Assembly: GCA_021234155.1 (NCBI GenBank)
Contig: JAJEKV010000041.1
Span: 11,728,689 to 11,792,688, forward strand
Source: Isoetes taiwanensis
Taxonomy: Eukaryota; Streptophyta; Lycopodiopsida; Isoetales; Isoetaceae
Length of the DNA: 64,000 nt
Direction of reading: 5' to 3'
Shown here: one piece after another, positions 891 to 61,958 of the stretch
How positions within the stretch are numbered: the first letter of the stretch is position 1
How the letters are laid out: every line of letters begins with the position of its first letter
Notes under the pieces: generated by a model
Told to the model about the DNA's origin: nothing
Databases searched by the model: none
What the model saw: only the letters and a program-made list of their open reading frames with translations
Program-made: the position numbers and the translations under genes

Positions 891-1206
891 CTTATGTGTT
901 GCATGCCAACCCACCGCAAAGAAAACTCAAGGGAAGATGGGCCCGGAGTTACCTCACTTTTACCACCGAGTCCACCACTGACTTGACCATCTCCCACGAG
1001 CCGGAGTCCACATACACGCACCAAGGAGGCCTCATGCTAAGCGTCACCGGTTCCTCTAAGGATAGTGCCACTTCCTCCACGCTCAACCACTTCGAGGTCT
1101 TACGGTTCATCGGTATCGCCCGGTGACCATGCAGCCGGGATAAGGAATACCGTAAGGCAGTTGATGACTATAACTAGTATATGGAAGAATAGGAAATTGG
1201 CCCGGT

Positions 1207-1585
1207 TTGATGGGAAATCCAGAGAGGCGGACTGAATGGAGAGTCCTGGTTGGACGAAATGAAGGAGTTTGGAAAGTCCTATGGCATGGCGGAGAAAGAT
1301 ACAGAAAGGTTGCTACCACCAACCTTACGAGGGGCTGCGAGTATTTGGTGGAAGGGCTATGCGGGGCCAAGCACCTAGGCAGGGCAGTATGCAACTTCAG
1401 AAAGTTTGCCAAAGCATTCAAGTCGCATTATGTGCCTCGTGCACACAAGTGCCAAACAAATTCGGACCTTTTATAGGTTGGAGCAGAAGGGTATATCGGT
1501 TCAGGCTTACACTGATGAATTTATGCGCCTGAGGCTGTATGTACCACGTATGAATGAAAAGAGAGCCGTGAGAGGGCTATATTGA
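1207..1585 (+). pseudogene. gag relic (retrotransposon gag core)
   Basis: Across two frames this encodes the usual plant Ty3 gag core: a Trp-Trp-Lys-Gly-type stretch near 1345-1365, then FAKAFKSHYVPRAH near 1405-1440, then a frame change into a segment containing LEQKGISVQAYTDEFMRLRL (about 1470-1535). The matching segment of the minus-strand element (49658-49936) has WWKGYA and YTEEFMRLRLYVPKLGEK, which supports the assignment. Frameshifts near 1330-1440 and stops after 1585 break it. Gag would form the virus-like particle. No intact start is visible. Confidence 0.75.
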
Positions 1586-1640
1586 AGGGTCGGCCCCATC
1601 AATCAAAGCGGATGGTTAAGGCTATAGACCAAATCGGGTT

Positions 1641-1990
1641 ATGGAGGCCGAGGCTAAGGCATTGAGCCTCGAGGAGGACACACCAAGGAACAAGATCCGC
1701 GCCCCGCTCCCACTCGCGAGCCCCGCCATCCACACCGTGCACAAACCCCGTCGCCAAGCCGGCCCCCCTCGCCAGAACCCCTATGGCCGCCAGAAAAGAA
1801 AGTTACCTTCACCACGGCGGATAAATGAGAGCAATGTCGGTGAAGGAAGTACGGAACCTCTTACGGTCAATTCCTAAAGAGGCGGAGAACAGCTCTACTG
1901 ATAAGGCATGCTACGTGTGTGCGGCCCCGCACTTTATACACAATTGTCCTTATGTTACACAGACTGCCTACCGCCATGGCCGACCCTCGA
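1641..1990 (+). pseudogene. gag C-terminal linker and zinc-knuckle relic
   Basis: A Pro/Arg-rich linker (1641-1877) leads, after a frame change, into a cysteine motif CYVCAAPHFIHNCP at about 1909-1950. Spacing is C-x2-C-x3-H-x4-C, one residue shorter than the canonical retroviral CCHC knuckle (x4 before His). It is either a family variant or a one-codon loss. The knuckle would bind element RNA in the particle. Confidence 0.6.
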
Positions 1991-2119
1991 TTGGGACGAT
2001 CCGAGTCGACCTTCCATTGTCGAAGACGAGGCTCCGAAAGTATATTCACGGTCGTCTCATATCCTTGCAAATTTATAGAAACCGGCAATGCCGAAAAGTC
2101 GACCTCTTTGTCATTTCCA

Positions 2120-2500
2120 CCATAGGGTCAAGTAGACGAGAAGCCTTTTGTAATTCTTATGGATACGAGAAGTACACATAATTTTGCTTCCCCTAGGATG
2201 GCCCAGTCTTCTGACTTGAAACATTAAGATCCCACCGAGGGCCATTACTCTAGCCGATGGTAAGGTCGGGCATACTCATGGCGGCGCATCAATCTTAAGA
2301 TGCAGTTGCCAGGTGCACCAGTCGCTTTGGGTGCCGAATTGATGGATATTGGCAAATATGACCTCATTGTTGGTATGGAATTCTTGGCATCTGCAAAAGC
2401 CAACATAGACTGCGAGAAGAGAGAAGTTACCTTCAACGCCGCTAATGGAGCCTGCGTGACTATCAAAGGTGAACCATTCAACCCTATCATGCAGTCTATG
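2120..2500 (+). pseudogene. aspartic protease relic
   Basis: The catalytic region reads LMDTRSTHNFASP near 2155-2195, where the family has D-S/T-G. The equivalent in the minus-strand element reads IDSGSSHNFASP. The Gly-to-Arg change in the active-site triplet and a frame break before the next open frame (which starts at 2300) mean it is inactive. The second half, with a motif like [20 protein letters not shown] (2360-2420), is the normal C-terminal part of retropepsins of this family and is fused in frame to RT. Confidence 0.7.
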
Positions 2501-3370
2501 TCCATCAGACAGTTAGCTAAAGCTATACGCAAGGAAAAGCTCCTTTGCGCCATTATGCTTGCTTCCATAGAGTCAGAAGCTAAACAGAAGCAAGTAATCG
2601 ATACCTTGCCAGAGGGGATTACTCATCTCCTCCGAGAATTCGGTGACCTTTTTCCAGATGAGATCCGGAAGCTCCCTCCTTTTAGAGGGATGGAATGTGA
2701 AATAGCTTTAGAGCCGGGTACCAAGCCTACCAGCAGGGCCCCGTACCGTATGAGTCCTCCAGAGTTGGCAGAACTTAAGAAGCAACTTCAGGAGTTACTA
2801 AACCTAGGTTTCATCCGATCTAGTGTTTCGCCTTTTGGCGCTCCTATCCTCTTCGTTAAGAAAAAGGACGGCTCCCTGAGGATGTGTATTGATTATCGGC
2901 AACTCAACAAGCATACCATCAAGAATCGCTATGCTTTGCCTAGAGCAGATGACCTAATGGATCAGTTGCAAGGGGCTAAGTATTTCTCGAAGATTGATCT
3001 ACGCTCCGGATACCATCAGATAAGGATTAAAGAGGAGGATATCCATAAATCCACTTTTCGCACTAGGTATGGGCATTATGAATTTACAGTCATGCCTTTT
3101 GGATTAACTAATGCCCCAGCAACTTTCATGCGATTAATGAATGATGTCTTTCGACAATACTTGGATGACTTTGTTGTTATTTTCTTTGACGACATTCTCA
3201 TCTATAGTAAGACCCTGGAGGAGCATGAGACACATCTTAGGCTAGCCCTACAAAAGCTAAGACGTCATCAGCTCTATGCCAAGTTCTCTAAGTGCAAGTT
3301 TGCCACTCCGAAGGTCGATTATTTGGGCCATATCATTTCGGCAGAGGGAATTGCTACTGAGACCACTTAA
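2300..3370 (+). pseudogene. reverse transcriptase (pol fragment)
   Basis: This is the longest open frame of the element, 356 codons. It covers the protease C-terminus (residues 1-60), a linker, and most of the RT palm and fingers. Visible motifs are [64 protein letters not shown], and the catalytic FFDDILIYS at about 3183-3210 (two Asp of the YxDD box). It ends in a stop at 3368-3370 just after the [11 protein letters not shown] segment, before the thumb/RNase H linker, so RT is truncated. It synthesises element cDNA when intact. Confidence 0.92.
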
Positions 3371-3389
3371 AAGATAGAGGCCGTCGAGA

Positions 3390-4063
3390 ATGGCCTATTC
3401 GAGGGAATGTTTCAGAAGTCGGGAGTTTCTTGGGATTAGCGAGGATATTATCGAAAGTTTGTAAAAGGATTTTCGCGAAGATTGCAGCCCCTCTTACAAA
3501 TCTCACAAAGCAAGAGAAGGTGAAAGATTGGATGGAGCAATGGAAGACAAAAGTTCAGGGGAGTTTCCAGCAACTTAAGGATGCCTTAACATCAGCACCA
3601 GTTCTCACATTGCCCGATCCTGAGCAGGATAAGCTAGTGGCAACGGATGCCGATAAAATTGCCACGGGGAGTCCTAATGCGAGAGGGGAGGGTTATTGCC
3701 TATGATTCAAAGAAAATGAGCGAAAGCGAAAGCAGCGATATCCTACCCATGATCAGGAATTGTTGGCGTTGTCCCGTGCTCTACGGATATGGAGACACTA
3801 CCTTCTTGGTAGAAGATTCGGTTGGATACGGATCATCAAAGCCTCCGTTATCTATCCACCGGCCAAATCTCAATCTTCGTCAGAGAAGATGGATGGAATT
3901 CTTGGAGGAGTATGATTTCGAGATTATGTATAAGCCTGGCAAGCACAATGTGGTTGCGGATGCATTGTCACGCCATCCCTTGGTGACCCGAACCCATTGT
4001 AATGCCATTTCTACGCTCACCGGTGAGTTTGGAAAAGCAGATAGAAGCGGACCTTGGCCCTGA
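3390..4063 (+). pseudogene. RNase H domain relic
   Basis: In at least two frames the sequence continues pol: a connection segment with KQEKVKDWMEQWKTKVQGSF (3505-3565), then an RNase H start resembling [18 protein letters not shown] with the first catalytic Asp, then [20 protein letters not shown] and [13 protein letters not shown] (about 3868-3985), the classic end of the Ty3 RNase H. The frame changes near 3650. It would remove the RNA strand of the hybrid. Confidence 0.82.
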
Positions 4064-4074
4064 TCAGGAGTTAG

Positions 4075-5177
4075 TGACATTTGGGATAGTTTCGCTAAGG
4101 AAGCTCGAACAGATAAGGAGCGTGACGCTTTCCGTTCGTATAAGAAAGAAGGCAACTTGTTATATTACAAGGATAAGTTGTGTGTACCTGAGACTTCAGG
4201 AGTACGTAAGCTCATTCTCCATGATACACACAATAGCCCTATAGCTGGACACGCAGGTTTTATGAAGACCTACTTTAAGATTGATCCGGCTATTTACGGC
4301 CTTCCATGAAAAGGACATTGCGGGTACATTAAGCGGTGTCGTATGTCGGCAAACCAAAATTTGGCGATTAAGGATTCCAGCGTGCAACCTCTGGATGTGC
4401 CCAACGCCAAATGGAAGGTGATAACCATGGATTTCATTGTGGGCCTTCCAAGAACTCTCCGGGGATATGATGCCTTGATGGTTGTGGTCGACAAATTGTC
4501 GAAAATGGCTCATTTCTTGCCATGTCGTACCCACGATCTGACCTTTGATCTTTGCTCGCGCTATTTGCCAAGGAGATCTTCAGATTACCGCGGAATGCCA
4601 CGGTAATTGTTGTGGGATAGGGATCCCAAATTTGTAAGTGCATTACGAAAGATTTCTTTGCCACCATTCCGGACCAAGCTTGCTATGAGTCTGACATATC
4701 ATCCTCAAGCAGAGGTCCGACAGAGCGGTACCAATCGCATTATAGAGGATATGCTAAGAAGTTATGTGTGGAGTAAGCAATCACAATGGGCTGACTATAT
4801 TTATCTGGGTCGAGTTTGCCTTTAACAAAGATGAAACGAGAGTCTTCGGGATGTCTCCTTTATGATAAACTATGGCTACCAATGTCTTACTCCGGACACT
4901 TGGCATAACCCCGTTTTCTAAGGTGGAGGTTTCTCAAAACTCCTCACGGAGATGCAAGCTCTGGTCGAAGAAGTTCGTGGCTACTTGTTGGTCGACGCAA
5001 TCGTCGAAGAGTGTAGCCGATAAACGTAACCCCCGGCGTTTTCAGGGGGGCGAATCGGTTTGGCTTAAGATTAAAGTGAAGCGAGCCAAGCTTAAGATTG
5101 GCAATCAGAAAAGTTGGCCCCTCGGATGTAGGGACCATTCAAGATTATTGGAGTTGTTGGAAGCGGTGTACGCTTAA
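4075..5177 (+). pseudogene. integrase relic
   Basis: Scattered across three frames are the integrase N-terminal zinc region (YKKEGNLLYYKDKLCVPE ... HNSPIAGHAGF, 4138-4265), the core with WKVITMDFIVGLPRT (first catalytic Asp) and DALMVVVDKLSKMAHFLPC (4410-4520), WDRDPKFVSA (second Asp, near 4614-4645), and HPQAEVRQSGTNRIIEDML with the position of the catalytic Glu, changed from the usual QTDGQTE (about 4700-4755). Stops and frameshifts occur at about 4308, 4603, 4822 and 4870. It would insert the cDNA into chromatin. Confidence 0.8.
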
Positions 5178-5179
5178 AA

Positions 5180-5539
5180 TTGCCGCCCCGCTTGAAGATC
5201 CACAAGGTCTTTCACGTGAGTCTTCTGAAACAACACACCCCTGATCCACAGGAGGTTTTGGATTCCCCAACCCTCCTAGAAATGACAGAAGAGCAGCCTG
5301 AAGCTCTTCTTGATCGAGCTTACAAACAAACCAGAAGGACTCAAATGTTGCAATACTTGGTTAAGTGGAAACACTTACCAGTTGAGGATGCTACGTGGGT
5401 GATGAAGATAGACCTTGACAAGCATTATCCGGACTTCATGCACGAATCTGAAGGCCGCACCATCAACGACGCTATAAACCCCGCAACTGGCGGTAAGCTT
5501 AGAAGCTTGATTGCCAGGAGTAGCGCCTTAGAGGGGTAG
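5180..5539 (+). pseudogene. integrase C-terminus with chromodomain
   Basis: An open frame of 119 codons. It begins with the integrase tail (KIHKVFHVSLLKQH) and then has a chromodomain at residues about 50-95: LLDRAYKQTRRTQMLQYLVK then WKHLPVEDATWV. The pattern hydrophobic-x-YLVKWKHLP-x-E-x-TW is the chromodomain core that in this family is known to direct integration by reading modified histone H3 tails. The chromodomain at 45720-45980 is its close relative. A long 3' UTR (5540-6112) follows. Confidence 0.88.
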
Positions 5540-6112
5540 ATGCACCGTAAATAATAACAAGTTACCGATGATGAGATCACTTTGACTTCTCTAGGATGTG
5601 GTGTACTGTCAATGTTGACCTAACCACAACTTGTTGCAGAGCATATAGTTGGTAGGCCGCGTTCCTTTCGGCTACAATGGGAACTTGACCATTCCCTATG
5701 CTGCAACGAACTGCAAACCATAGACATGATAGGTTCCCTGATAGATAGGATTTTCTTGTAATTATTATAAGGGGGTACCACAATTTCATCATATGTACTG
5801 ATATACTGACATGTGCAGGCCAGTAAGCAGTGCGGGCCCTGCCCATGCTACAGGGTTACTGATGACCCGAACTCTTCAGTTTTATGTTGCCTACATGTTT
5901 TGTTTATTGTTCCACTGATGTTGGTATTGGACTTCGGTCCCTAACTTTTTGATTATGATAATGCGAATGCACCACGGTGCTTGAACTGTTTTGCAAACTT
6001 CAAAGTTTGAATATATGTATTACTTTTGGAAAAATAAGGAATTACCTTCCTTCATAATGTATTTCTTTCTACATTCGTAACTAACCCCAATGCTGAGGAC
6101 AGCATTAATTCT
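5540..6112 (+). other. 3' untranslated region of the Ty3/gypsy element
   Basis: No open frame is supported between the chromodomain stop and the polypurine tract. The minus-strand frame at 5577-5846 matches nothing I know. This is the usual place for a chromovirus 3' UTR. Confidence 0.6.
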
Positions 6113-6125
6113 AAGAAGGGGAGAA
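6113..6125 (+). promoter_or_regulatory. polypurine tract
   Basis: AAGAAGGGGAGAA lies directly before the TGTGACG edge of the LTR. This is the expected plus-strand primer for second-strand cDNA synthesis. Confidence 0.85.
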
Positions 6126-7119
6126 TGTGACGTTCCAAGTATTTATACGGTGTACGTATAAATATATTGACACGTCACTCGGTATAGATACGCCACCTGA
6201 GGTATGATAACCTAGGGGGTTGACCACAAGGGATTTATTTAGCTATGTTAAATTAATTATAAAGGATAATTATCTAAATACTTGCTATTAAGTCGCCTAA
6301 TGGTAGGAAGGCGCCATTTGGCATAACCTGAGAGGCCAGCATGGGGGTTTCTAAACTGAGCCACCAAAGGCAGCGCCACCCCCATCTTACCCCAATTTCG
6401 ACCCGCCCGCCCGACCAAAGGAGCGGTTAAAGCTCAAAGCGATTCTTTGAACATCCCCAATCGCCAAGACACCCTCTACACCGTCATTTGTTACCCGATG
6501 CAGCACTATGGAACCTTTGTGTGATCCCGGAAGGGGCGCTTCCCGACACCGCCTCATCGGACAGGTGTCATGAACACGGAGTAGGCTCAAAGGGTGATAC
6601 CTAGAGTCTGCGCCTCAGGGAAGACTATAGCGAAGCCATAAGCGTGAATCGACCCATCCGCAAAGTGTGGCGAGGAGGGGTGGATGGAGTGGACAACCCT
6701 AGCCGATGTTCTATGCCATTAGCGCCATGCCAAGACTCGGTCTGGCCGATCTCCACGAGACCCAGCCGTCAGTCGCTCCTCACTAGAGTCTGAACCGGGG
6801 TAGAACCTGGGCTTTGGGTGTTTTCTTAGCTTAGATGCATATTCTTTGCCGTTGGTACTTGGATGGATGTGCCACCCCTCGTGGTGGTTATTTATATGTG
6901 ATTTATGTTGTATGCTAACCTTGTATTCATGCTTCCGCGACGTAGGCGCCCATCGAAGGCGTGGGCCGAATGACCCCTCCGTGTCCTTCACCTGAGCGTC
7001 TCTATGTAGACAGCCCGGGTTAGATGGAGGGCCCTGCTCGTGGCGAGATGATCGCCATGGGAGGGGAAAGTCCCCGTATGTATACGACCGGGGGTCGTAT
7101 ATATTCAGGGAGCGTCACA
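6126..7119 (+). repeat. 3' LTR (994 bp)
   Basis: It starts TGTGACGTTCC after the polypurine tract and ends GAGCGTCACA, giving inverted termini TGTGACG/CGTCACA. The LTR end contains a short palindrome around CGACCGGGGGTCG. Blocks such as CGCAAAGTGTG and GGATGGAGTGGACAACCC are shared with the LTRs at 43.2-44.8 and 55.1-56.7 kb, and CAAAGTGTG with the one at 37.8-39.2 kb, so the four LTRs are related subfamilies. Confidence 0.85.
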
Positions 7120-12100: not shown

Positions 12101-12220
12101 TTGATGGGGTTTGGGAGCTCTCTATCTTCAACAATAGATTTCAGCCAATAAGAATCTTTCCCTGCTACATCAATCCCTTCAAATGGGCCTTCCTATAGGC
12201 TTTCAAACTTGGCTGCACTA
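9170..12220. other. no gene recognised
   Basis: About 3 kb with many short open frames on both strands, none matching a family I know. The largest, 10008-10460 on the minus strand (150 codons), is low in codon bias and looks spurious. The segment 10430-10620 is rich in GATG/GGTG repeats, which explains its openness. It may be intergenic or decayed transposon sequence. Confidence 0.4.
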
Positions 12221-12225
12221 TCCTC

Positions 12226-12375
12226 TCTTATCTTATTTCATCTTATCTTATCTTATCTTATCTTATCTTATCTTATCTTATCTTATCTTATCTTATCTTA
12301 TCTTATCTTATCTTATCTTATCTTATCTTATCTTATCTTATCTTATCTTATCTTATCTTATCTTATCTTATCTTA
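12226..12375. repeat. TCTTA pentanucleotide microsatellite
   Basis: Perfect TCTTA units run from 12241 to 12375 (27 copies), preceded by two more units and one imperfect unit. The pentamer period gives open frames in the plus direction (repeating Ser-Tyr-Leu-Ile-Leu), which are not genes. Confidence 0.97.
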
Positions 12376-12377
12376 TT

Positions 12378-24921: not shown

Positions 24922-25186
24922 ATCGAATATAAACCAAATGACAAATATTTCATAATTGCAGGTTGCAACTTCAGGTTTTAAATGAAAGCATCATGTACAC
25001 TAATAGAAATTTCGCTTTGTTCTTCAATAGAAGTCCTTGCAAGGCCTGTTTAATGTAGACTGAAATCTATATTTTGTTAATAGGAGCCCTGCAGCAATGT
25101 CCCCGATCTCAATCAAAGCATTGAAGATGATGCATTGTGACAGTGAACAAATGTTTTCCCTTGTTCTATCATGGACATAATTTTCT

Positions 25187-26092: not shown

Positions 26093-26096
26093 GAAA

Positions 26097-27000: not shown

Positions 27001-27009
27001 TCTAGATCT

Positions 27010-43188: not shown

Positions 43189-44836
43189 TGTGACGTCCCC
43201 TACTCATATACGGTGCACTCACCGTATATAAACAGGAGTTCATCCCCCATACCGGCTCCATGCCGCTACAGGGCCCTCCACATGACACTGCACCCGTGAC
43301 GGGTTCCAGTGGGAAGAGTGAAGGGGTCATTTTACCCCGTCTCCCTCAGGGCCTATCTAGCTGCGAAGCGTAAACATACATGTCAGTATATAACATAAGC
43401 ACATATCCACCTCGAAGGGTGGTCCATCACATCTGCATAGACAAGGGTGAGCACAATACATATGGGAAGTCCTACCCAAGGCTCAGACTCAAGGGGATGA
43501 CCGACGGCTTGGGTCTCGAGTTCATTGCGCATTTAATTCATGGCAATGGATTTGGCCGGGCATATGAACATGGCATAGGGTTGTCCACTCCATCCGCCCC
43601 TCCCGTGCACACTTTGAGTAGGCTGAAAAGTATCGGGACTCGATCAGAGCCGGATGCATAGCCAAAGGGGCTATTCCCCGGTCTCATCCTCCCGGTTCGA
43701 TGGGGGGCAGAAGGGATCGCTCCCTCGAGAGATCTGCATCTTGGACTCAAAGGTGACTAGAGGGCCTTTGCCCGTGATTCGGTGAACCCACCGGAAAGTG
43801 TACACCACTTCACGGTGTCGAGTCCATGCCCTACCCCACACTCGGTGGTAGGCCATTAGACCTAGTCACTATGATCCCCCGGTAGGCCTTACACACCGGA
43901 GGGATGGATTCAAGAGTCGGAACATGAACCTCCTTCTTAGCCGATCGGCCCCTTCACCCACAACGGTGTGGTTCTTGTGCACAGGCCGAATCTATAGTGT
44001 GCTAGAGAGGCTAATCTAGGAGCATCTACTACCAAGCTTGAGGTCTCTACCCCCCTTCCCAATACAAGGAGTTCATAGAGATACATCATCCATATATATC
44101 ACAGAAGAACTGAAGAACTATATCTAATCTATATCATAGAGTTAGGTTCTTTAGTTAGAGGCTGGCATCTAGGGATCTAGAAGGCTGCTATGGGCAATTT
44201 AATAGGCTAAACCTACTGATTCTATGACTGAAATAGGGTTTAGACTAGTTAATTGGCCAAATACCTGATCCTTGCGTGGCTCCTCCTGACCTGAGTTCGA
44301 CCATCCTGCTGAAACGCTCGAATCAAGGGAAACTAATGGTGCAATTCTCAGCAATTGTACGGGAGGTGGTTTTGGCTCTTGAGGCAGCCAAAACAGAGCT
44401 CTAAAATCCTAGAAACGAAAATTGGGCAAGTTAGGGTTTCCCTTCTTAAATAGACAAGGGGTTGGCTAGGGTTTCCAATTATCCCCTTTAGGCATGTGGG
44501 ATAATTGGGAATGGGCCCACTTGCCTTTAATGGCTAGGTGGCAAAATGTGCCCACATGGAAATGTGTGCCCACATTAATGTGTACATTGGTAAATGTGCA
44601 CATTAATTGCACACTTGGGTGCATGAAGTGTCTACATGGAAATGTGTGCCCACATTAATGTGTACATTGGTAAATGTGCACATTAATACTAATGCACATT
44701 CTTAGCAAGTTGCCCCCTAGGGGCTACCCACTTGGCTACATGCGCGTCATTCACGCCACGGCGTAAGTGGCGTGGCTGGCGAGGCAAGATAAAGATATCG
44801 CCCCGGGACCGGATATCGCCCCTCGAACGCGTCACA
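43189..44836 (-). repeat. 3' LTR of element X (1648 bp)
   Basis: Read on the minus strand it starts TGTGACGCGTTCGAGGGGCG after a polypurine tract and ends GTAGGGGACGTCACA. It is the same family as the LTR at 55068-56738, in the opposite orientation. It contains a duplicated block near 44569-44690 built on CACATTAATGTGTACATTGG. Confidence 0.9.
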
Positions 44837-45719: not shown

Positions 45720-45980
45720 TTAATCTACACAAATCGACATGCCTGAGCCGATTTCTTCGGAGATGACTTTGCCGTCCCATTGCTCCATAAACTGCGGGTA
45801 CTGCTTTACTAGATCTTTCTTAAGTACCCACGTCGCGTCTTCCACCGGTAAGTGTTTCCACTTAACCAAATATTGGAGGAACTCCGACCTCCTTGTTTTC
45901 TTGAAAGCTTTATCAAGAATCAATTCTGGAACTATTTCCAGCTGCTCCTCTGTCATTTCCAACAACGTTGGAGTGTCCAA
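45720..45980 (-). pseudogene. chromodomain, integrase C-terminus of element X
   Basis: An open frame of 86 codons with TPTLLEMTEEQLEIVPELIL, then the chromodomain KKTRRSEFLQYLVKWKHLPV and EDATWVLKKDL. Aromatic and Trp positions of the fold (YLVKW, TW) are kept. Chromodomains of this group are known to bind methylated histone H3, which matters given the H3-like sequences in this family. It is close to the one at 5180-5539. Confidence 0.88.
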
Positions 45981-47782: not shown

Positions 47783-48754
47783 TTAGCTCATGAACTTCCT
47801 GTAGTACCCTGCTACATTCTTCGGCGCCGGCCACTGAATGACGGCTTCAATCTTGGCAGGATCCGTCGAGATTCCTTCTGCTGAGATCACATGACCCAGG
47901 TATTCCACCTTTTCTGTTGCGAAGTGACACTTCGAAAACTTGGCGTACAACTGGTGCCTCTTCAACCTCTCTAGCACTCTCCTTAAGTGTTGTACGTGCT
48001 CTTCAAGGGATCTGCTATACACCAAAATGTCATCAAAGAATACAATCACAAAGGTGTCTAAGAACTCCCTGAAGATGTCGTTCATGAGCCTCATGAACGT
48101 CGCGGGGGCATTCGATAAGCCGAAAGGCATTACCGTGAACTCATAATGCCCATACCGCGTTCTGAAGGCGGTCTTGTGGATATCTTCTTCCTTTATCCTG
48201 ATCTGATGATAGCCTGACCTTAAGTCGATTTTGGAGAAGACCTTTGCACCTTGGAGCTGATCCATCAAGTCATCTGATCTGGGGAGCGCATACTTGTTCT
48301 TAATGGTGTGCTTGTTCAACTGCCTATAGTCTATGCACATCCTTAAACTGCCATCCTTCTTCTTTACAAAGAGAATGGGTGCTCCAAATGGCGAGACGCT
48401 AGGTCTAATGAAGCCTAGGTCGAGCAACTCCTGTAATTGCTTCTTCAGCTCCGTCAACTCCTGCGTCGTCATTCTGTATGGAGCCTTGCTTGTCGGCTTT
48501 GTTCCCGGTTCGAGTGCTATCTCACACTCGACTCCCCTGTAAGGAGGAAGCTGCTTGATCTCATCTGGAAAGAGATCATGGAACTCCGTGATCAGCTTAG
48601 CTATTTGCTTCGGCAACTTGCTGAGCACCCTGTCTTCTTTGCTTTCTTCTGACTCTGGCTCATCAATCTCAAGCTTGAAGATGTATGCCACCTGCTCGCT
48701 CTTGATGCACTTGAACAGCCGCTTAGAAGACATACACTCGCATGATGGGAACAA
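47783..48754 (-). pseudogene. reverse transcriptase of element X
   Basis: A clean open frame of 323 codons, the best-preserved pol segment in the window. It has [65 protein letters not shown], catalytic [15 protein letters not shown], then [16 protein letters not shown] and the thumb [16 protein letters not shown] to a stop. The family's usual SFLGLAGYYR linker is shortened to NVAGYYRK. It is about as similar to the RT at 2300-3370 as subfamilies of one lineage. Confidence 0.93.
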
Positions 48755-48759
48755 CTTCT

Positions 48760-49180
48760 TTACTCGCGGATCTCAATGATCTTGCTGTTGGTGTTGGGAA
48801 GGTCACCTTCCGCTTTCCACAATCAATAATGGCCCCTCGCTGGTCCAAGGTACTCCATTCCTATGATCAAGTCGTTACTTGCCATTGCCAATGCCCATTA
48901 CTTACGCCCCATCCGGATATTATTCCACGGCAAGTCGATGTCGGTTAATTCTCTTGCCGCGTCCGCCTTTATCGCTCCAACTTGCTAAGACAACGGGCCT
49001 TGGCTTTGACTTTAGTGGTTTCAACTTCAACATTTGGACCATTCGGGGATGCAAAGTTATGGCTACTTCCCGAGTCTATCAAGACTATGAAGGATTTGGT
49101 CTTGGCCTTCCCCTACCGTGGAAATTACTTTATATCGGCTCTCTCCGCTTGCTCAGATCTATTGCGGCAAAGATATGACA
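48760..49180 (-). pseudogene. aspartic protease relic of element X
   Basis: The active-site motif FIVLIDSGSSHNFASP (Asp-Ser-Gly at 49076-49068) is intact. The following 250 bp are broken by stops (near 48990, 48945 and 48880) before the frame leads into the RT linker. Confidence 0.7.
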
Positions 49181-50540
49181 CTCACCACGAATGTAGTCGC
49201 GGACCTTCCTCGCCATCGCCGCCGTGGATGAGTGTCCCAATCTCCCAACTCCGCTTAGTCTTTGCACTCATGACGTAGGGGCAGTTCGCCGTCCTATGGC
49301 CTGGCCGAAGCACTCAAGCAAAGCTGCTTTTCTATGCACTCGCTCTCTTTTCCTTGGGCATAGCACGCAAAAGGATCGATCGCTTTGGAGTAGTTTGACC
49401 CCCCCGCTTGTCCTTGAAGGACACCCGCTTCTTCTCCTCCTGTTTCCCTTTGTTGCCACTATATGGGGCTCTAGCCGACTCGGGGCTGCCCTAGGGCTAT
49501 AACTCCCCGATTGCCTTGCCTTTATCCGGTAATGCTTTGCTGCCTGCGCCCGCTATTCCGAGGTCCCGTTTCCTTGCAAGCTTATTGCCTTGGACTCGCT
49601 TCTTTGTCTTAGGATTTATTGCCCTTACAAGCTTGCGGATCTCTTCATTCAGTGCCCTCAATGTAGCTCTCTCTTCGCATGTTTTTCGCCCAACTTTGGC
49701 ACATAAAGTCTTAGCCTCATGAATTCCTCTGTGTATTTCTGGACTGATTTGTTTCCCTGTTGCAACTTTGTAGAATCACGCATCATCTTTGGACTTGTGC
49801 TCCTTTGGGCGTAATGGCTTGAAGGCTTTAGCAAACTTTTCGAACTTACAAGCATCCCCTGCTTAAGCCATGTGCCTTTTGCATAACCCTTCCACCAAAT
49901 CCGTGCGGCTCCTTTCAAGTTGGCTGCATTTGCCACTCTCGCCTTTGTCTTTATCCTTCATGCCATAAGCATTGCCGTACTCACTCATTTCTGGATCCAG
50001 CCATGCCTCTGCTTCTAATCGACTGTTCTCCCAGGAAGCATTCCGATTTCGCCTTCCATACATTGCCCCGGTCAAGTGTAATCTACCTTCTCTCGGGTAG
50101 TCGAGGCCCCGTGTCCCTTTTGTCGTCCTTCTATGGCGCCCCCTCTCCCTTGCATCCTGCAGGTGTTCCTCGCCTTCCATCCGCTCGTCCCGGTCCGCGC
50201 TCTTTCGCCTTCCCGGAGTCCGAGTCCAGCCCTGAACTTGAGTCGAGGATTCCCAGCTGGAGGACCTCCTTCTCTTGCTCCTCTTCTTGTCCCTTCCCTG
50301 TTTTTCCGAGCTGATGCTTGAGGCACCCTGGCGTGCCCACCACCCCCTTCTCCCGCTGAAGCGGCCAACAAAGCCTTTATCCGCCTGTGTCCGTCCTCAT
50401 CTGTGATATTTCCTCTTCTAGGGTTATGGGTCCAAATTCCTCGAATAGGTTTCTTGCCGGGGGTGGCCTGGGCGGACTCTGTTCTTCCATATGGTCTCGG
50501 CGTTGTCGTTCCCCTGAGCCTAGGCCTCTAGCTGCATACA
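49181..50540 (-). pseudogene. gag core and C-terminal linker of element X
   Basis: 49936-49658 encodes ANLKGAARIWWKGYAKGTW and YTEEFMRLRLYVPKLGEKHA, the retrotransposon gag core. Upstream, 50371-49863 is Arg/Glu/Gly-rich and low in complexity. Downstream to 49268 are basic segments typical of the nucleocapsid region, but I see no clean zinc knuckle. There are several frameshifts. It is homologous to 1207-1585. Confidence 0.7.
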
Positions 50541-52202
50541 CAAGCAGTTCATGGCTATATGGTTAGTTTTAGCTTGTTCTCTTGCATTATTATGTTTGTT
50601 GGTACAAATTACATCAACAAAACATTTGAAGTGCAACAAGAAATTATATTTATATTATATAATATTTTGGTACAAAAAAGTCTCCGGGATCAAGAGTCTA
50701 ACTAATCTTGAAATCGCCGGTAAGATGGGTTGTCCTCAAGGAACTTCTTAACTTGGGCCGTTCCTACCGAATGACCCAAGTTCCTGAAGACGCTTGCTGA
50801 TGAGCCACCCTGCAAGGCTCTCGCCAAGTCTTCCACTCTGCGGTCGGATGTGAGGGTCGCGGCCACCGCTAATCTCGCCTGACGTCGATGAGGTATGGCG
50901 AAGTCGAAAAGGTCAAATGCCATTGCTCTAGGGCAACAGAGTTTTGGACATTTGCCGCTATTCGGGCATGCCCGCGCCAAGCCCCGAGTGCAATCAACAT
51001 GAACACTCCTTCCTCACCTCTAGGGCTGAATTTGCGGTGTACCACCGCTATTCTCCCTTATCAAGCGCGATGCGGGTGTAGTACCTCAATGACATTGCCG
51101 TTGTGCATCGTGGATGATTCCCCACTTGTTTGGCCTCCTGCTCTATGCCGCCCTTCATATTCATCGACCTCTATCTCGGTGAGCTCGCGGTAGTCTTCGA
51201 TTGGGAGTCGACTGCGCCGAGGTCGATTCCCTCCTCTTGCCGGAGGTGGTGTCGAGGGACTCGGCATCGGGATGCCGTGGTCTTGCCTCGATCCCCATCC
51301 GTTCCTCGAATGGCGAGGAACTCTTTCTTGGATGGCAGGTCTCGGTCTCCATAACACGCCTTATCTTTGCTGTATGCCTGGGATGGAAGTAAAGTCGCCT
51401 CGAGTAGGTGTCGGCTTCCCCGACTTGAAGCGGGAAGTTCGAGACTCCCGGACGGGATGAAGTCGCCCATGTCGGTCCGCCCAGATTGGTGGAGCAGTTC
51501 ATCCAATAGGAGCTCCCTCTCCCACGCATTGGGAGGTTACGGATGTCACCGAGGAGTAGATACTCCTCTCCATCGATGATGATAGGGGCTAGGCTTGTGA
51601 TGCCTAGCCCAAGTGGGGGAGCAACTCGGATAGTCCAAACGGGGCCCGGCCAAGTTGACCAGCCCCTGCTGCACGCTTGTCACCGTTCCTCTTCTGAGTC
51701 TAGCTCGATGTACTCTTCGTCGTCCGACTCCTCTTCTTCTTCCCTTCCTTCTTACCGCAAAAGCATCTGCTCTTCGGCTTGGACTGCTATGGGGGTCCAC
51801 CTCCATCTGAGGGATAGAGGTTGCCCCCATTGGGTTTCGCACCGGTGGGATAGGAAAATAGCTAAGGCAGCGGTGTAAGAGAAATACTTGGTCCTGTTGG
51901 CTGTCAGGACCATGTAGTCTGGTAGCCTCTGTGCCTTGTTAGTTAAGTACTTGGCGATGTTGGGGACATCACCCAAGGTGCTTGGGAAGGGAAAACTAAA
52001 TATCCTATGCAAGGGGAACTCGAACAAGGAGGGTCCTACCCTAGCTTGAAACTCTGCTAACACTTGCCTATATCTTTGGGGTTGCATTTAGCGTAGCTTG
52101 GATATCAATTTCTTTTCCCAAAGACTTGGAAGATGTCGTTGACATCCGCCCCGGAACATGGGCACCGGCGCCGCACCATCGCTGAAGTCGGCAGATGGCC
52201 AT
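50541..52202 (-). pseudogene. N-terminal gag region of element X
   Basis: The ATG at 52202-52200 follows the leader (see 52203-52904) in the same place as the H3-like ATG of element Y, but its frame (MAICRLQRWCG...) stops after 44 codons. Other minus frames continue: 52087-51752 (111 codons, with LTNKAQRLPDYMVLTANRTK), an acidic stretch EEEESDDEEYIELDSEEE (about 51745-51690), a segment with IIIDGEEYLLLGDIRNLPMR, and 50980-50702 (92 codons, ending VKKFLEDNPSYRRFQD). None matches a known domain. The AT-rich stretch 50550-50700 could be an intron or an insertion. Confidence 0.5.
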
Positions 52203-52904
52203 TGATCTAGCTTAAGAAGGAGTATCAAACGGATGCAGAAGCGCCTCAAGGAGCTGAAAGATCGCCTAAGCAGTGGAGAGCAAACTTTCAGGGTGCTAAA
52301 TGAGAAATGGAGGACCTATTTATAGAAAAGGGAAAAACCCTAATTTTTGGATGACCTAGACTTTACTGAGATTGGGTGATTCTGTTCTATTAAAGGGTGC
52401 AATTGAGAGTTTGAAGATTACTTCTAGGGTTTGAGCATGCTAAGATGGGCTAATGAACCTATTGCAACAATTTGGAGATCATTTGGTGAAGAAAATGGGG
52501 CGAGGTCTCACACGTTGTGCCCAGACCGATAATGAAAAGTTCATTTTCTGTCCTGGCGCGACGTGTGAGACATGGGTTCTAAATGGGCTAAACTTAATCA
52601 ATTTGGATAATCTAAGGCTGTAATTCTACTAAACTCGCCGAGTTAGGCAGAATTGACCCCTTATTTGGTCGATTTGGAGCAGTTTTGGGCATGGTCTCAC
52701 ACGTTGCGCCCAGCCCGAAAATGAGAATCTCATTTTCTGTCCTGGCGCGACGTGTGAGACATCGTCTCAATTTTGCTCAAAAACTCCAATTTACCCAAAA
52801 TAAAAGCCAGAAATCGATATCTTAACTTAATTAAACAAGATTGAACTCATTATTTACACAAAAATTCTTTATATTAACAAAATTTTTTATTATTTACAAG
52901 AAGT
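52203..52904 (-). promoter_or_regulatory. leader of element X with two 67-bp hairpins and a TATAAATAG box
   Basis: Two 67-bp palindromic units lie at 52694-52760 and 52505-52571. Each has an outer stem of GTCTCACACGT(T)GCGCC pairing with GGCGCGACGTGTGAGAC, and an inner stem such as AATGAGAATCTCATT. Further on (52324-52315) the minus strand reads CTATAAATAG, then a segment with TTTGCTCTCC and GGCGATCTTTC before an ATG. The same hairpins, TATAAATAG and GCTCTCC...GGCGATCTT occur in the leader of element Y. In retroelements such a position suits RNA dimerisation, packaging or translation control. Confidence 0.8.
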
Positions 52905-53170
52905 TCAAGGCCGTTCTCCCTTGATGTGTTTGGCCAAAAACATATCCTGCCTCATGAGTGTGACCCTCTTCGCGTGCACTGTGCAGGCCGTTGAATCTTC
53001 AAAATGCTGCACTATTTTCGCCTCCGCCTCGCCAGGCACAAAGACATCTCATCGGTCACCCGCATGTCCGTGTTGTACTCTGCATGACTTCTCGGACCAA
53101 GCGTTGAAGCGGTGCCCGGGATCAAGAGTAAAGTAACTTCTCGGAAGTGCCAGGTTTCCTTGAGAGCTCT
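52905..53170 (-). pseudogene. histone H3-like fold relic carried in element X
   Basis: On the minus strand three or four frame pieces align in order with the H3 histone fold. The pieces are ALKETWHFREVTLLLIP (53167-53117; H3 ALREIRRYQKSTELLIR), RAPLQRLVREVMQ (53118-53080; H3 KLPFQRLVREIAQ), YNTDMRVTDE (53077 onward; H3 FKTDLRFQS), and EAEAKIVQHFEDST then CTVHAKRVTLMRQDMFLAKH and IKGERP-stop (to TGA 52907-52905; H3 ends RIRGERA). LLIP, RAP and VTLMR recall CENH3, while the QRLVRE block and GER ending are canonical H3. Frameshifts at about 53118, 53079 and 53020 make this copy a pseudogene. It ends exactly where H3 ends, so it is not a random match. It lies upstream of the gag leader, in the same orientation. 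Confidence 0.85.
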
Positions 53171-54044
53171 CTGCTCATGCTTGCTCTTGCTCCAGCTTCT
53201 TTCCTGGTGCTCTGGGAGGCTTGGGCTTTCAGTGGCGCTTCAGGGGTCGACTCTCGTCGGTGTCCGCCTTCAATTGTCCGCACTCCCCGCTGGTAATAAG
53301 CATTGTATGCCTCCCCCCGCCATATAGGCATTGTGCTCCTTAATCTTCTTCGATAGACCTTGGACGGGTCTATCACATTATGCCTCCTCCCCAAGCGTGG
53401 GGCTTTAGCTCTATCCCGTCGAAAGGTGGGGGCTTCGCAGGGCTGCTCTGCTTTCGGGTGCCACCACTTTCGGGTACTTCCTTCTCCGCGGGCGGGGTTT
53501 TGAAGAACTTCGCCCCCTCCGTGTTGGGGGCGTAATCATCGTGCCCGAGTCCGGTCGGCGGGTTCACCGGACGGGCTCATTGATGGCGGGGCCTGGCCGC
53601 TACCAACCTTGACTGACTCTTCGCCGCCATGCCTTGATGCTCTTGGCCTTCCTCTTCTTGCCCGCCGGGCAGTGGGTTGGGTCGCCTTCCGTTCTTAGAT
53701 CCTCCGCCCCGGCAGCTCCTTGTCTTCATACTTGATGAAGGCCCGCGAGGGTCTGCTTCTTCGAGGGGGCTAAGTTGCCAGCCGCTGCCGCTCTCTCTCC
53801 TCTCCTCCTCCTCGACGGGCAGACCCAAGCCTCGAGTTGCTCCTCTCGTGTCGGCTGCCCTATCATTCCGTTGCTCCACCTTCTCCTCTCCTCCTCTGCG
53901 ATCTCCCGAGAATTTGCTCCATAATGTCGGCCGCTCTTCCTCTATGACCTCCGTTTGGTCGCTCCGGTCCGATCCCTCCTCCTCGCTGGATAAAATGTTC
54001 AAATTGTTGGGCTTTTGACTAGGTAAATCAAGCTTGTATGACAT
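53171..54044 (-). pseudogene. charged low-complexity frames upstream of the H3-like fold
   Basis: Minus frames 54044-53577 (155 codons; acidic and Arg-rich, with LSSEEEGSDRSDQTEVIEEE), 53567-53373 (64 codons, ending in a stop before the next ATG) and 53394-53122 (90 codons; contains AYYQRGVRTIEGGHRR, then shifts frame into the H3-like segment). They could be the disordered N-terminal extension of the same protein. No H3-tail motif is visible here, and the copy is cut off at about 54050. Confidence 0.45.
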
Positions 54045-54050
54045 GTTTGA

Positions 54051-55067
54051 GAAGCTTTATGTATCAAAATTTTTTTCTGGAGCTGTCTTTTAAGATTATA
54101 GAAGGAAAACCTTTTAAATAGGCAGTTAATGGCTTTATTATACGATCCAGTTATCAAAAATTTCAACCTTCAAACAATATAAAGTTTGTAATGGGACAAT
54201 TAAGGTGTATTCCTACCAGATAGAGGTTTGAACTGGACGGACTAAGCATATCCACCACGAGGATAGAAGATGCTGATTGAGAAACTGTGGAACATTTCAT
54301 TTTTGCTTGGGCCTACTTTATAAGAGGAAGCCTCGATAGAGACCTAACGGGTTCGCAGCATTTTAGAAATGCGTAGTTGCCTTTACAACTTTACCATCTG
54401 CCTTTAAATAAATCCGCTTCTTTGAATTTCAACACGAAACTACAAAACAAATAATATGCAAATACACCCTCGAGGCACTGGAGGGCAACCCTCCGTGCGC
54501 AAGCACCTTGTTTAACAAGTTTTAGTTTACTGTCAATTTCAAATACAGAATTAAACCAAAGGTCAGTAAGTTTATTATACATATGTACAAAGACATATGT
54601 ACGGACACTGGTTTGGGGTTCCTCGTTAATTGGCCGGACGGCTCTACTAATATCAACAAAAATAACCGGAGGGGGAGGGAGGGATTAGAGGGTTTAATTC
54701 AATGGTTCTATTTCTTGATATGTGGGATGCCGTAACATGTAATATTAATAATATTCATTATACAAGAAATTTATCGCGGCGATATTTTTAAGGCGGAACA
54801 ATTTCAGTTCTAGATATGCCAAAGTTGAAGTAATTGCAATGCTCATATTTCTAGATATGTCAAAGTTGAAGTAACTGCAATGCTCACGTCTATGCTTGAA
54901 GAATTTGAACCTCCATATGTGGTAGGATAACTAAAGGCAGACAAAAATGTGAAACATTCTTTCCCACCTCTGAAACTGCCTCAGAACCTAAAGCCATATC
55001 AACTTTTATGCATCCATATCCGCAACTTCTATATAATCATGTTGGGAGGAGAATTGGATCTCGCATG
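54051..55067. other. spacer between elements X and Y; small LINE-like scrap
   Basis: No gene is supported. At 54240-54320 a plus frame reads ISTTRIEDAD then, past a stop, VEHFIFAWAYF, faintly like a LINE C-terminal zinc region. At 54472-54516 lies the hairpin repeat shared with 29997-30043. At 54820-54890 a phrase TCTAGATATG(C/T)CAAAGTTGAA occurs twice. Y's LTR begins at 55068. Confidence 0.4.
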
Positions 55068-56738
55068 TGTGACGTTCCAGTGACGATACCGGTCCCGGGA
55101 CGATATCGCATCACTGCGCCACGCCGCGACATGCCACTCCGACTGACGTGTACGCCGACGTGTAGCCAAGTGGGTAGCCCCTAGGGGGCAACTTGCTAAG
55201 AATGTGCATTAGTATTAATGTGCACATTTACCAATGTACACATTAATGTGGGCACAAATTTCCATGTGGACACTTCATGCCAAGTGGGCCATACCCAAGT
55301 GTGCAATTAATGTGCACATTTACCAATGTACACATTAATGTGGGCACACATTTCGATGTGGGCACATTTTGCCACCTAGCCATTAAAGGCAAGTGGGCCA
55401 TTCCCAATTATCCCACATGCCTAAAGGGGATAATTGGAAACCCTAGCCAACCCCTTGTCTATTTAAGAAGGGAAACCCTAACTTGCCCAATTTTCGTTTC
55501 TAGGGTTTTATAGCTCTGTTTTGGCTGCCTCAAGAGCCAAAACCACCTCCCTGACATGCTCGAGAGAATTGCACCATTAGTTTCCCTTGATTCGAAAGCG
55601 TTTTCAAAGCCAGGATGGTCGAACTCAGTCGAGGAGCCACGCAAGGATCGGGGTATTTGGCCAATTAACTAGTCTAAACCCTATTTCAGTCATAGAATCA
55701 GTAGGTTTAGCCTATTAAATTGCCCATAGCAGCCTTCTAGATCTCTAGATGCCAGCCTCTAACTAAAGAACCTAACTCTATGATATAGATTAGATATAGT
55801 TCTTCAGTTCTTCTGTGATATATATGGATGATGTATCTCTATGAACTCCTTGTATTGGGAAGGGGGGGTAGAGACCTCAAGCTTGGTAGTAGATGCTCCT
55901 AGATTAGCCTCTCTAGCACACTATAGATTCGGCCTATGCACAAGAACCACACCTGGTTGTGGGTGAAGGGGCCAGACTCGCTAAGAAGGAGGTTCATGTT
56001 CCGACTCTTGAACCATCCCTCACGGTGTGTAAGGCCTACCAGGATCATAGTGACTAGCTCTAATGGCCTACCACCGAAAGTGTGGGTAGGGCATGGACTC
56101 GACACTGTGGAAGTGGTGTACACTTTCCAGCTGGGTTCACACGAATGGCAAAGTGGCCCTCTAGTCACCTTGAGTCGGCATGCAGATCTCTGGAGGGAGC
56201 GATCCCTTCCTGCCCCATCGGAACTGGGAGGATGAGACCCAGGAATAGCCCCTTTGGCTATGTCTCCGGCTGGCTGGTCAGTCCCGACACTTTTCAGCCT
56301 ACCGCAAAGTGTGCACGTGAGGGGCGGATGGAGTGGACAACCCCTATGCCATGTTCATATGCCACCCAAATCCATTGCCATGAATTGCCTCTGCAATGAA
56401 CTCTTGGAGACCCAAAGCCGTCACCATCCCCTTGAGTCCGAGCCTTGGGTAGGACTTCCCCATATGTATTGTGCTCACCCCTTGTCTATGCGGATGTGAT
56501 GGACCACCCTTCGATGTGGATATGTGCTTATGTTATATATCGACATGTATGTTTACGCTTCGCAGCCTAGGTAGGCCCCGAGGGAGACGGGGTAAAATGA
56601 CCCCTTCACTCTTCCCACTGGAACCCGTCACGGGTGTAGTGTCATGTGGAGGGCCCTGTAGCGGCATGGAGCCGGTATGGGGGATGAACTCCTGTTTATA
56701 TATGGTGAGTGCACCGTATATGAGTAGGGGACGTCACA
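55068..56738 (+). repeat. 5' LTR of element Y (1671 bp)
   Basis: It starts TGTGACGTTCCAGTGACG, ends GTAGGGGACGTCACA, and is followed by one base and a primer site. It is the same family as 43189-44836 (inverted relative to it). It contains two copies of a block around ATGTGCACATTTACCAATGT (55214 and 55310). Confidence 0.92.
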
Positions 56739-56739
56739 G

Positions 56740-56751
56740 TGGTATCAGAGC
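56740..56751 (+). promoter_or_regulatory. primer binding site for initiator Met-tRNA (element Y)
   Basis: TGGTATCAGAGC, complementary to the 3' end of initiator Met-tRNA, lies immediately after the LTR. It proves that 55068-56738 is a 5' LTR. Confidence 0.93.
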
Positions 56752-57407
56752 AATGTTCTTGGCGACCAAGAGCAAATAATCACCATGTTCCCAATAGTAC
56801 TAACTTGATAGGATCCTTAAACCTCAAAAAGTGGGGAAATTTTTTTCTCATTTTTGTAGTAGATGCTAAGCTAGTAACAGTTAGAAGTGACTGAAAACAT
56901 AATGAAAACACAAAAAGACTGAAATTGGTGAGCCAACTTCCAAAAAGTAGGGTGGTCTCACACGTCGGCCAGATGTGAAATGAGATTCTCATTTTCTACC
57001 TGGAACAACGTAGAGACATTCAAATTTTAAACACACAAAAAAAAGTCACAAATCACAGAAAATTAACTTGATAATTCTAATTTTGAGTTAAGAATTAGTA
57101 AAATGAGCATGTTATATGTGTAGAAAGCATAAAATCTAGCAGTAGGCCCCACCATGTCTCACACGTCGCGCCAGAGCAAGAAATGAGCTTTTCATTATCG
57201 GTCTGGGCGCAACGTGTGAGACCATGTTTAAATTTAGGTGTTTTAGATGTTTTAGGCAACCCAAAAAGGTAGTTTGAAGTTTGACCTAAAATCGACCCCT
57301 ATAAATAGACCTTGACCCCCTCAATTTCGCGTACCCTGCTTAGAAAATCTGCTCTCCTTTGCCAAGGCGATCTTCTGGCGCATACTCGGATCGGCGAACC
57401 GTCAAAC
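56752..57407 (+). promoter_or_regulatory. leader of element Y with two hairpins and TATAAATAG
   Basis: Hairpin units lie at about 56955-57018 (stem partly decayed) and 57156-57222 (GTCTCACACGTCGCGCCAG pairing with CTGGGCGCAACGTGTGAGAC). TATAAATAG is at 57300-57308, about 100 bp before the ATG. GCTCTCCTTTGCCAAGGCGA then TCTT matches the leader of element X. Confidence 0.8.
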
Positions 57408-57525
57408 ATGGCCCGCACAAAGCAGACCGCCAGGAAGCCCCCCCGACGCGGATCCTCCAGCGCCAGTGACCCCGGCCTGATTCAGAGGATACTGCAAGAA
57501 CGCCTTTTCCGGCAATGTTATGTGG
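57408..57525 (+). pseudogene. start of first ORF of element Y: histone H3-tail mimic
   Basis: The ATG at 57408-57410 has a strong context (AAACATGGCC). The frame reads MARTKQTARKPPRRGSSS then ASDPGLIQRILQERLF. After Met removal, residues 1-9 (ARTKQTARK) are identical to the N-terminus of histone H3, including Lys4 and Lys9; from residue 10 it diverges (PPRRGS, where H3 has STGGKA). The upstream part of this open frame has no ATG, so the mimic would be truly N-terminal. From about 57525 the sequence becomes MnmG intron/exon DNA, so the ORF is truncated; the open frame runs on by chance to 57749. It is the first frame after the leader, where gag starts in this family. Confidence 0.85.
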
Positions 57526-60852: not shown

Positions 60853-61084
60853 CTGCAAGAAGATAAAACTTGTATGGATGTTAATCAAACATAATGCCTA
60901 AACAATCACAACAACATGATAATATCATTTATCAGATAAAGTCTACTTCTTCCATGCTCCTTCATCACTCTGGGCTCCATTGCCGATTACCTGGAAAATA
61001 ATTCCTAACATCATTTCAACCTAAAACAGGCAGCTATGAAGAATAACATTACCTGTGCGATTCAACTGGTTCTGCGGCCGATCT
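60853..61084 (-). other. intron or flank upstream of the MnmG exons
   Basis: A minus-strand polypyrimidine tract and CTTCTTGCAG mark the splice acceptor of the first visible exon. No dinucleotide-binding motif is readable here. Confidence 0.5.
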
Positions 61085-61958
61085 CCACAGAGCGACCTTG
61101 AGCACAGCAAAAGAAAGAAACCGGCTTCAAGAAATGAGACGTCGAGTTCTTTACCAGGTGACCAAACTCTCACCAAATCAAAGTCCCTGCTCTCTACCAT
61201 GATCTTGCCCTGCCCGGCAGGACAGACCTCCATGCTGTTTCCAGTAGAGTGCAACACAACTAGTAAACATGCTTTGGGTGCCTTCAATAAGTTACTATAG
61301 TTAATGTCTTCACATTGGCTATGCTTGCTGTCAGCAAGCAGAAGAAAGAGCAGCTATAGAATCATCATTAAAAAGCTAAAAATTGATGTAAACAAGTGCC
61401 CACGAATGGTTACCTTTGTTTGCTTAAAGTCACGGATCCTTGTCAACATGCTAGTTTCTCCAAACAGGTTTGCCATTGCATCACTTTTTCAGTATATCCG
61501 ACTAACACAATGCTGCAACTCTATCTTTCTGGAAAGAAAATGATGTATATCTGGAAAATGATCTAGCACAGTAAAGCTTTGGAGAAAAATTTGCAAAGAC
61601 ATATTTTACCTTGGTTCAATCCTTATGTTGCAAGATGACTGTAAGTTGTGTGAGTTGTACTGATTAAAAATGGAATCAATGATTGATAACACCGTAATGC
61701 CTTAGCCTGCCTTGAAGTTGCAGAACAGATCAACCTCATTTGATGTAGAATAGATATTCTTTGGCTCTTGAACAAGCTGTAACAAGAGCTTTATCAGAAA
61801 CTTTAGAAAACTAAAGCCACCTCCAAGAGCTATTTCTTGGCCTTTCTCTAGCTTCCATGGTCGTTCTCATGAGCTAGTTTCCACAGAGCGACCTTGAGCG
61901 TAGCAAAAGAAAGAAACCGGTTCAAGAAATGAGACGTCGAGTTCTTTACCAGGTGACC
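61085..61958 (-). repeat. direct repeat of about 79 bp (61085-61163 and 61880-61958)
   Basis: Both copies read CCACAGAGCGACCTTGAGC then, after two changes, AGCAAAAGAAAGAAACCGG and AGACGTCGAGTTCTTTACCA. They lie 795 bp apart in the same orientation. On the minus strand the copies end in a polypyrimidine tract and CTCAAG, like a splice acceptor. The minus frame 61287-61021 through the first copy (88 codons, with SMEVCPAGQGKIMVESRDFD) is of unknown nature and could be an upstream exon of the MnmG gene or an unrelated one. Confidence 0.7.

Follow-up and report, generated by a model that had tools for sequence, protein, structure and literature searches.

A Ty3/gypsy chromovirus family in Isoetes taiwanensis whose first open reading frame probably encodes a histone H3-like protein with an exact H3 tail

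Transposon silencing works partly through marks on the histone H3 tail, and histone mimics and virus histones include the influenza NS1 tail, bracovirus H4 and the histones of large DNA viruses. Extra open reading frames and captured genes are known in plant LTR elements, as parts of PMC7264820 and PMC11963269 describe. Orchid Ty3/gypsy elements carry an AlkB-type RNA demethylase thought to counter host control, and 15 unusual domains were recorded in the LTR elements of 121 angiosperm genomes; a histone is not named in the unusual-domain section of that report (PMC9289625, in part). The word histone is also absent from the main text, in the portions available, of PMC7264820, PMC11963269, PMC5408684 and the Isoetes genome paper PMC8566536. 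Group II chromodomains (CHD_II) are defined in a passage of PMC3350952 as lacking Y24 and usually Y48 of the aromatic cage, and a section of a review states that their mechanisms have yet to be elucidated and that fusions confirmed heterochromatin targeting (PMC12786077).

The element described here, element Y, lies in a window of 64,000 nucleotides of I. taiwanensis DNA (contig JAJEKV010000041.1, positions 11,728,689 to 11,792,688, forward strand). An ATG at position 57408 of the window (+) opens the piece MARTKQTARKPPRRGSSSASDPGLIQRILQERLFRQ, in which Met is followed by H3 residues 1-9 exactly (MARTKQTARK), as a preliminary description of the sequence had noticed. The 23-base DNA start of this frame, ORF1, occurs once in the window and was matched in 0 of 100 shuffles. 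Upstream of the ATG stand, in order, a 5' LTR (TGTGACG...CGTCACA, 55068..56738, +), a primer binding site TGGTATCAGAGC (56740..56751, +) and a leader. The primer site, which we take to fit the plant initiator Met tRNA, was found at the same place 3' of the 5' LTR in all five copies examined, the window copy and four others. Within the leader, an inverted-repeat module TCTCACACGT...ACGTGTGAGA (57149..57226, +) sits at about -252/-197 from the ORF1 ATG in all eight copies examined, and a TATAAAT box (57300..57306, +) lies 108-111 nt 5' of the ATG in seven of the eight.

The preliminary description let the coding piece run to 57525. Comparison with four other copies shows that element sequence stops at 57515, which limits the N-terminal piece of ORF1 in the window to 57408..57515 (+). 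Copies L009, L013, L014 and L022 match the plus strand as far as 57515 and resume 12 nt later on the minus strand at 53990; L009, for instance, aligns to 57100-57515 (+) and 12 nt later to 53990-53338 (-), and the same junction is seen in the other three. A DNA query of 57300-57520 was searched against the source genome and the best 40 of 1,017 candidates were scored, the window's own included; most of these matches stop at 57515 or a few bases from it. Since the copies run through the junction, the frame opened at 57408 continues, inverted, at 53990-52905, and ORF1 breaks off at 57515 because the 5' end of the window copy is inverted. The inverted segment (53991..57515) comprises 5' flank, 5' LTR, leader and ORF1 start. 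The window copy is therefore one element with an inverted 5' end, and its two LTRs, the 5' one being inverted relative to the rest of the element and compared with the minus-strand 3' LTR (43189..44836, -), are equal at 1496 of 1635 aligned sites (K2P 0.090). The five bases outside both LTRs are identical in element orientation, GCATG (55063..55067, +, and 43188-43184 on the minus strand, after the 3' LTR). Two unrelated insertions in opposite orientation are ruled out by this common target-site duplication (TSD) and by the copies spanning the junction. An exon of a GIDA/MnmG-type tRNA-modification gene (58635-59042, -; Pfam 1.9e-30) adjoins the inverted end of the element, and the inversion may have rearranged an intron or flank of this gene.

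The remainder of ORF1 in the window copy (52905..53990, -) carries stops and frameshifts and terminates in AEAKIVQHFEDSTACTVHAKRVTLMRQDMFLAKHIKGERP and a stop codon. Its last part encodes a frameshifted H3-like histone fold (52908..53167, -), matched over two frames at 1e-12 in a tblastn search with a sequence that we take to be plant H3. A 40-aa single-frame piece of it (53027-52908, -) matches Pfam Histone PF00125 at 3e-6 and H3 chains in the PDB at 5.4e-9. The preliminary description saw an isolated tail followed by divergence, a view that does not hold, as the rest of the frame, inverted in the window copy, encodes an H3 core. Its judgement that this is a retrotransposon ORF and not a plain H3 gene copy was borne out.

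Beyond ORF1, the window copy has two more inverted-repeat modules (52504..52765, -, at 52765-52690 and 52575-52504), in an arrangement similar to that of eight copies, a TATAAATA box (52324-52317, -) between these modules and ORF2, and the remnant of ORF2 itself (50705..52202, -), which encodes a protein of unknown family. These are followed by a gag remnant (49275..50400, -, approximate limits; the L013 homologue matches Retrotrans_gag at 7.1e-18), the reverse transcriptase (RT; 47786..48772, -; Pfam RVT_1 7.7e-42) and a chromodomain at the integrase end (LILDKAFKKTRRSEFLQYLVKWKHLPVEDATW; 45773..45965, -). Other features of the window are a non-LTR, LINE-like element recognised by eye only (25181-27810, +), with frames resembling an ORF1 protein, an endonuclease and an RT, a TATCT repeat array with a 5-bp unit (12184-12411, +) and an 80-base direct repeat (61084-61163 and 61880-61958, +), 96% identical and with its units about 800 bases apart.

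Across the family the order is LTR, primer site, ORF1, ORF2, gag, protease-RT-RNase H-integrase with chromodomain, and LTR. LTRs with a TSD and a tRNA primer site, gag, RT, integrase end and chromodomain are all present, which places element Y among the Ty3/gypsy chromoviruses. Copy L013 is 13,408 bp long, has CTAGC on both sides, an LTR divergence (K2P) of 0.011 and an intact ORF1; L022 measures 13,377 bp, has the TSD CCTGG, an LTR divergence of 0.043 and a broken ORF1. LTR divergences of L019 and L020 are 0.023 and 0.029, and the blast ends of these two copies showed no flanks that match. No 3' LTR was seen for L015 and L023 within the stretches examined, and therefore not every copy is whole; pol frames are interrupted in the copies examined. 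ORF2 encodes 511 aa in L013 (1597-3129, -) and is also found in L029 (2080-3225, -), and the L013 protein has no Pfam match. A diverged ORF2 homologue was recognised by eye in a related neighbouring element downstream of the L013 copy. About 2.5 kb beyond ORF1, gag has a frame of its own, which rules out the identification of ORF1 as gag; of the two roles considered in the preliminary description, gag or accessory ORF, the second is the one that stands. Inverted repeats of the TCTCACACGT...ACGTGTGAGA type with a TATAAAT box precede both ORF1 and ORF2, the box being present between the two frames in eight of eight copies. This arrangement suggests that each of the two frames may have its own, putatively internal, promoter.

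ORF1 of about 417 aa begins with H3 residues 1-9, continues as a charged linker of about 300 aa and ends in an H3-type histone fold. A full ORF1 of 415-417 aa ending in HIKGERP is present in three of the first 20 copies (L013, L015, L023); L010 and, among the next 19, L045 have more than 400 open codons but another C-terminal sequence. In L013, the tail is followed by a basic stretch, an acidic linker at residues 37-145 (35 acidic, 20 basic), more charged linker and the fold at about 323-417. Pfam Histone is matched at 1.5e-26 over residues 305-413, and the best PDB matches are H3.3 and H3.1 (4e-27). The fold aligns with plant H3 without gaps, 50 of 89 residues being identical, and the folds of this family, hereafter family 1, are identical at 48-53 of 89 positions to that of the host H3 gene L080 (G000:C919:11900355-11900785; 136 codons, no intron). 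The Pfam match and the closest similarity to H3 chains assign the domain to the H3-type core histone folds, and ORF1 almost certainly encodes an H3-like protein on the basis of these homologies. It is not a canonical H3, which has about 135 residues and the whole tail: the ORF1s examined range from 413 to 437 aa and share only residues 1-9 at the N-terminus, residue 10 is Pro rather than Ser in most of them, and beyond it the sequence diverges from H3 until the fold. Since AlphaFold gave poor models (mean pLDDT 58 and 47), the fold assignment rests on homology; helices at 321-340, 346-360, 368-386 and 392-412 of these models only suggest H3 alphaN and alpha1-3.

Of 18 family-1 ORF1s, 16-18 retain each of R69, R72, R83, D106, C110, H113, A114, K115, R116, T118, D123 and L126, positions that we take to be important in pairing with H4, in H3-H3' contact and in DNA binding. 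R63 is replaced by Pro, K122 by Gln and R129 by His in all 18, and K79 by Asn in 17 and Thr in one; with these four positions changed, nucleosome assembly is not to be assumed. Among the best 120 of 1,631 database matches to a window-based query, no relative of ORF1 was recognised, and the five examined in full are canonical histones, either fused or in multiple copies. Viral contigs scanned for the pattern gave 0 matches.

Copies of ORF1 are numerous. A search with the whole ORF1 protein gave 14,741 first-look candidates (a loose count), from which 100 places were scored; 36 of these, counted by eye, are 75-100% identical over residues 1-417 and free of stops, and another, nearly full-length but interrupted by a stop, has 71% identity. 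Three earlier copies and 15 chosen from these 36 form a set of 18 ORF1s without internal stops. Three of the 18 depart from the tail (MARTEQTARK, MARTKQTTRK and MARDKTVSRK), and 15 keep MARTKQTARK exactly. The exact tail is also present in 32 of the 39 copies retrieved by DNA similarity, a set biased by a query that included the tail.

For dN/dS we used 17 intact ORF1s with pairwise identities of 67-92%, L068 being dropped for want of a stop codon at the expected end. Pooled NG86 values, descriptive as the pairs are not independent, are 0.067 for residues 2-10, 0.31 for 11-36, 0.23 for 37-240, 0.126 for 241-322, 0.067 for the fold and 0.171 for all of ORF1. Pairwise fold values among L013, L015 and L023 are 0.03-0.05. 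Variants common to at least three of the 39 copies number five synonymous and no nonsynonymous in the tail and 44 and five in the fold. Singletons number four synonymous and six nonsynonymous in the tail and, in the fold, 27 and 48 with three stops in addition. This is the pattern expected of a protein constrained while elements are copied and decaying after insertion, and the purifying selection that the preliminary description had proposed to look for in further copies is apparent in the tail, and in the fold as well. Arg3 and Ala8 are each encoded by four synonymous codons, and because synonymous codons vary, the data argue against an RNA-level cause of tail conservation. Judged from the sequences, the MARTKQTARK start is not chance, because it is exact in 32 of 39 and 15 of 18 cases with varied synonymous codons. 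A tail identical to the modified stretch of H3, and kept by selection, makes ORF1 a candidate histone-tail mimic.

These results bear on the alternative that the element captured a host H3 or CENH3 gene and carries it as ORF1, a passenger without function. Gene capture by plant LTR elements is described as common in part of PMC7264820, and the window copy is itself broken. However, purifying selection acts on ORF1s that are intact at 67-92% identity, and at synonymous sites the tail DNA of the window copy departs from the host H3 gene L080, which leaves this reading hardly credible. Chance, or a functionless passenger H3 copy, is ruled out by selection and the number of intact copies.

Using a pattern that required W45, we found a chromodomain in seven of nine family-1 stretches, six of eight copies and the window; L014 and L023 gave no match to the pattern. 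All seven have W45 and no aromatic residue at the Y24 and Y48 cage positions, which we assigned by eye in an alignment to a sequence presumed to be HP1. With that alignment, the family-1 chromodomains fall into group II. The preliminary description had proposed that methylation of the Lys9 equivalent in the tail (peptide ARTKQTARKPRR) would let the chromodomain of the element's integrase bind it, so that particles are coupled to chromatin. Tail and chromodomain are indeed encoded by the same element, and fusions of group II chromodomains are reported, in part of a review, to go to heterochromatin (PMC12786077). Against this stand the missing Y24 and Y48 aromatics in the seven chromodomains detected in nine stretches with the W45 pattern, the Pro that follows Lys9, and a tail that is not on gag. 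The proposal is weakened accordingly and we consider it very unlikely. As an H3 fold is present in the same protein, the likely mechanism is that of an H3-like protein encoded by the element and no longer that of a short tail mimic. Recruitment of host readers by the tail is possible.

H3 folds are encoded by a second family of elements as well. We searched the genome with a sequence that we take to be rice CENH3 and scored the best 150 of 7,969 candidates; many of the matches sit in open frames of 420-500 aa, and three other places share the score and match of the host H3 gene. The C-termini at L079, L081 and L082 (family 2) contain folds identical to that of host H3 at 76-78 of 89 positions. 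At the three loci examined for their starts (L083 and L084, which are the loci of L081 and L082, and the further locus L085) the first Met of the open frame is not followed by the H3 tail; the frames begin MANTKSAPDPS, MAITKSAPDPS or MANAKSTIDPK, continuity from fold to start resting on open-frame lengths. Two of the three loci have gag and RT on the same strand, about 3-5 kb downstream; at the third, two places were examined and showed neither. Because the family-2 N-termini examined lack it, the tail is evidently not needed in all these elements. A partial family-2 element is present in the window itself (1170..7119, +, the start being as far as compared), with matches to RVT_1 and Chromo (5132-5536) and a 3' LTR-like end at 6126-7119 recognised by TGTGACG...CGTCACA; window 1170-1666 is 88% identical to L086 (gag) and 2959-3461 is 93% identical to L087 (RT). 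In an unrooted tree of 17 folds, including eight of the 18 from family 1, family 2 groups with H3 (96/93) and family 1 forms a long separate branch (0.49).

Another possibility is that ORF1 descends from CENH3 and would steer the element to centromeres or interfere with them. The motifs ALKEIRHFQ, LLIP.APF and VTLMR.D resemble those of Arabidopsis and rice CENH3, in sequences that we take for those of the two plants. Loop 1, however, has the length found in H3 and lacks the extra residue of the presumed rice CENH3, without the elongation seen in CENH3, and the tree, in which these two CENH3s were included, cannot place the 0.49 branch of family 1 nearer to H3 or CENH3. On these comparisons a CENH3 origin seems improbable.

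ORF1 could also act mainly as a decoy that titrates writers, erasers and readers of the H3 tail (H3K4, H3K9) and weakens silencing, the fold serving as an anchor or for stability. A tail as strongly constrained as the fold is consistent with this, as are the retention of the H3 1-9 epitope alone, with divergence from residue 10 until the fold, and the separation of the protein from gag and pol. Titration alone, however, leaves unexplained both dN/dS values of 0.03-0.07 over the whole fold and a second family that has the fold and no tail. We regard the decoy as possible but rather unlikely.

The reading we prefer, with a probability of roughly 0.6, is that the first ORF of element Y, a Ty3/gypsy chromovirus, encodes an H3-like protein of host origin that would act in host chromatin. 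The fold may pair with host H4 or an H3-H4 chaperone, by which the ORF1 protein would enter host chromatin. The linker would hold out the H3 tail, which host H3-tail enzymes and readers may treat as H3. The most likely uses would be to tie element complexes or element DNA or cDNA to chromatin, and to engage, blunt or saturate the H3-based machinery that silences transposons; we propose this mechanism as a whole tentatively, at somewhat less than even odds. Self-recognition by the chromodomain through methylated Lys9 would be the least likely version of the mechanism and is its weakest part. In a doubtful but related scenario, a retrotransposon-encoded H3 variant would assemble with host H4 on element or target DNA, and the at least two families, one tailed and diverged and the other tailless and near canonical, would represent separate or repeated evolution of an element histone in lycophyte chromoviruses.

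If the preferred reading is true, a mobile element has taken over the substrate of its own silencing, in an abundant family with some LTRs only 1% diverged. The supply of histone variants by transposons becomes testable, and the ORF1s are natural sequences for separating the roles of tail and fold. In practical terms, histone annotation and antibodies against the H3 N-terminus may mislead in I. taiwanensis.

No report of a retrotransposon-encoded histone was found in the titles from a literature search of limited reach, and what appears new here is an additional chromovirus ORF, itself of a known kind, that is a histone. Element Y shares with plant Ty3/gypsy chromoviruses bearing group II chromodomains its LTRs, primer site, gag, protease-RT-RNase H-integrase order and 5-bp TSD, as well as a chromodomain without Y24 and Y48; it differs from them in having, between leader and gag, two additional sense ORFs, of which the first is H3-like. 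Like the AlkB elements of orchids, as covered in part of PMC9289625, it has a host-type protein fixed in an LTR element family, but the protein is an RNA demethylase there and a histone fold with an exact H3 tail, in a lycophyte, here. Pathogen histone mimics and virus histones are likewise foreign proteins with a histone tail or fold, whereas ORF1 belongs to an LTR retrotransposon, exists in many intact copies and joins tail and fold in one protein. With host and plant H3 and H3.3, ORF1 shares residues 1-9 and an ungapped fold at 48-53 of 89 identical residues; unlike them, it has a linker of about 300 aa in place of tail residues 10-36, many surface changes and a mobile element as its carrier.
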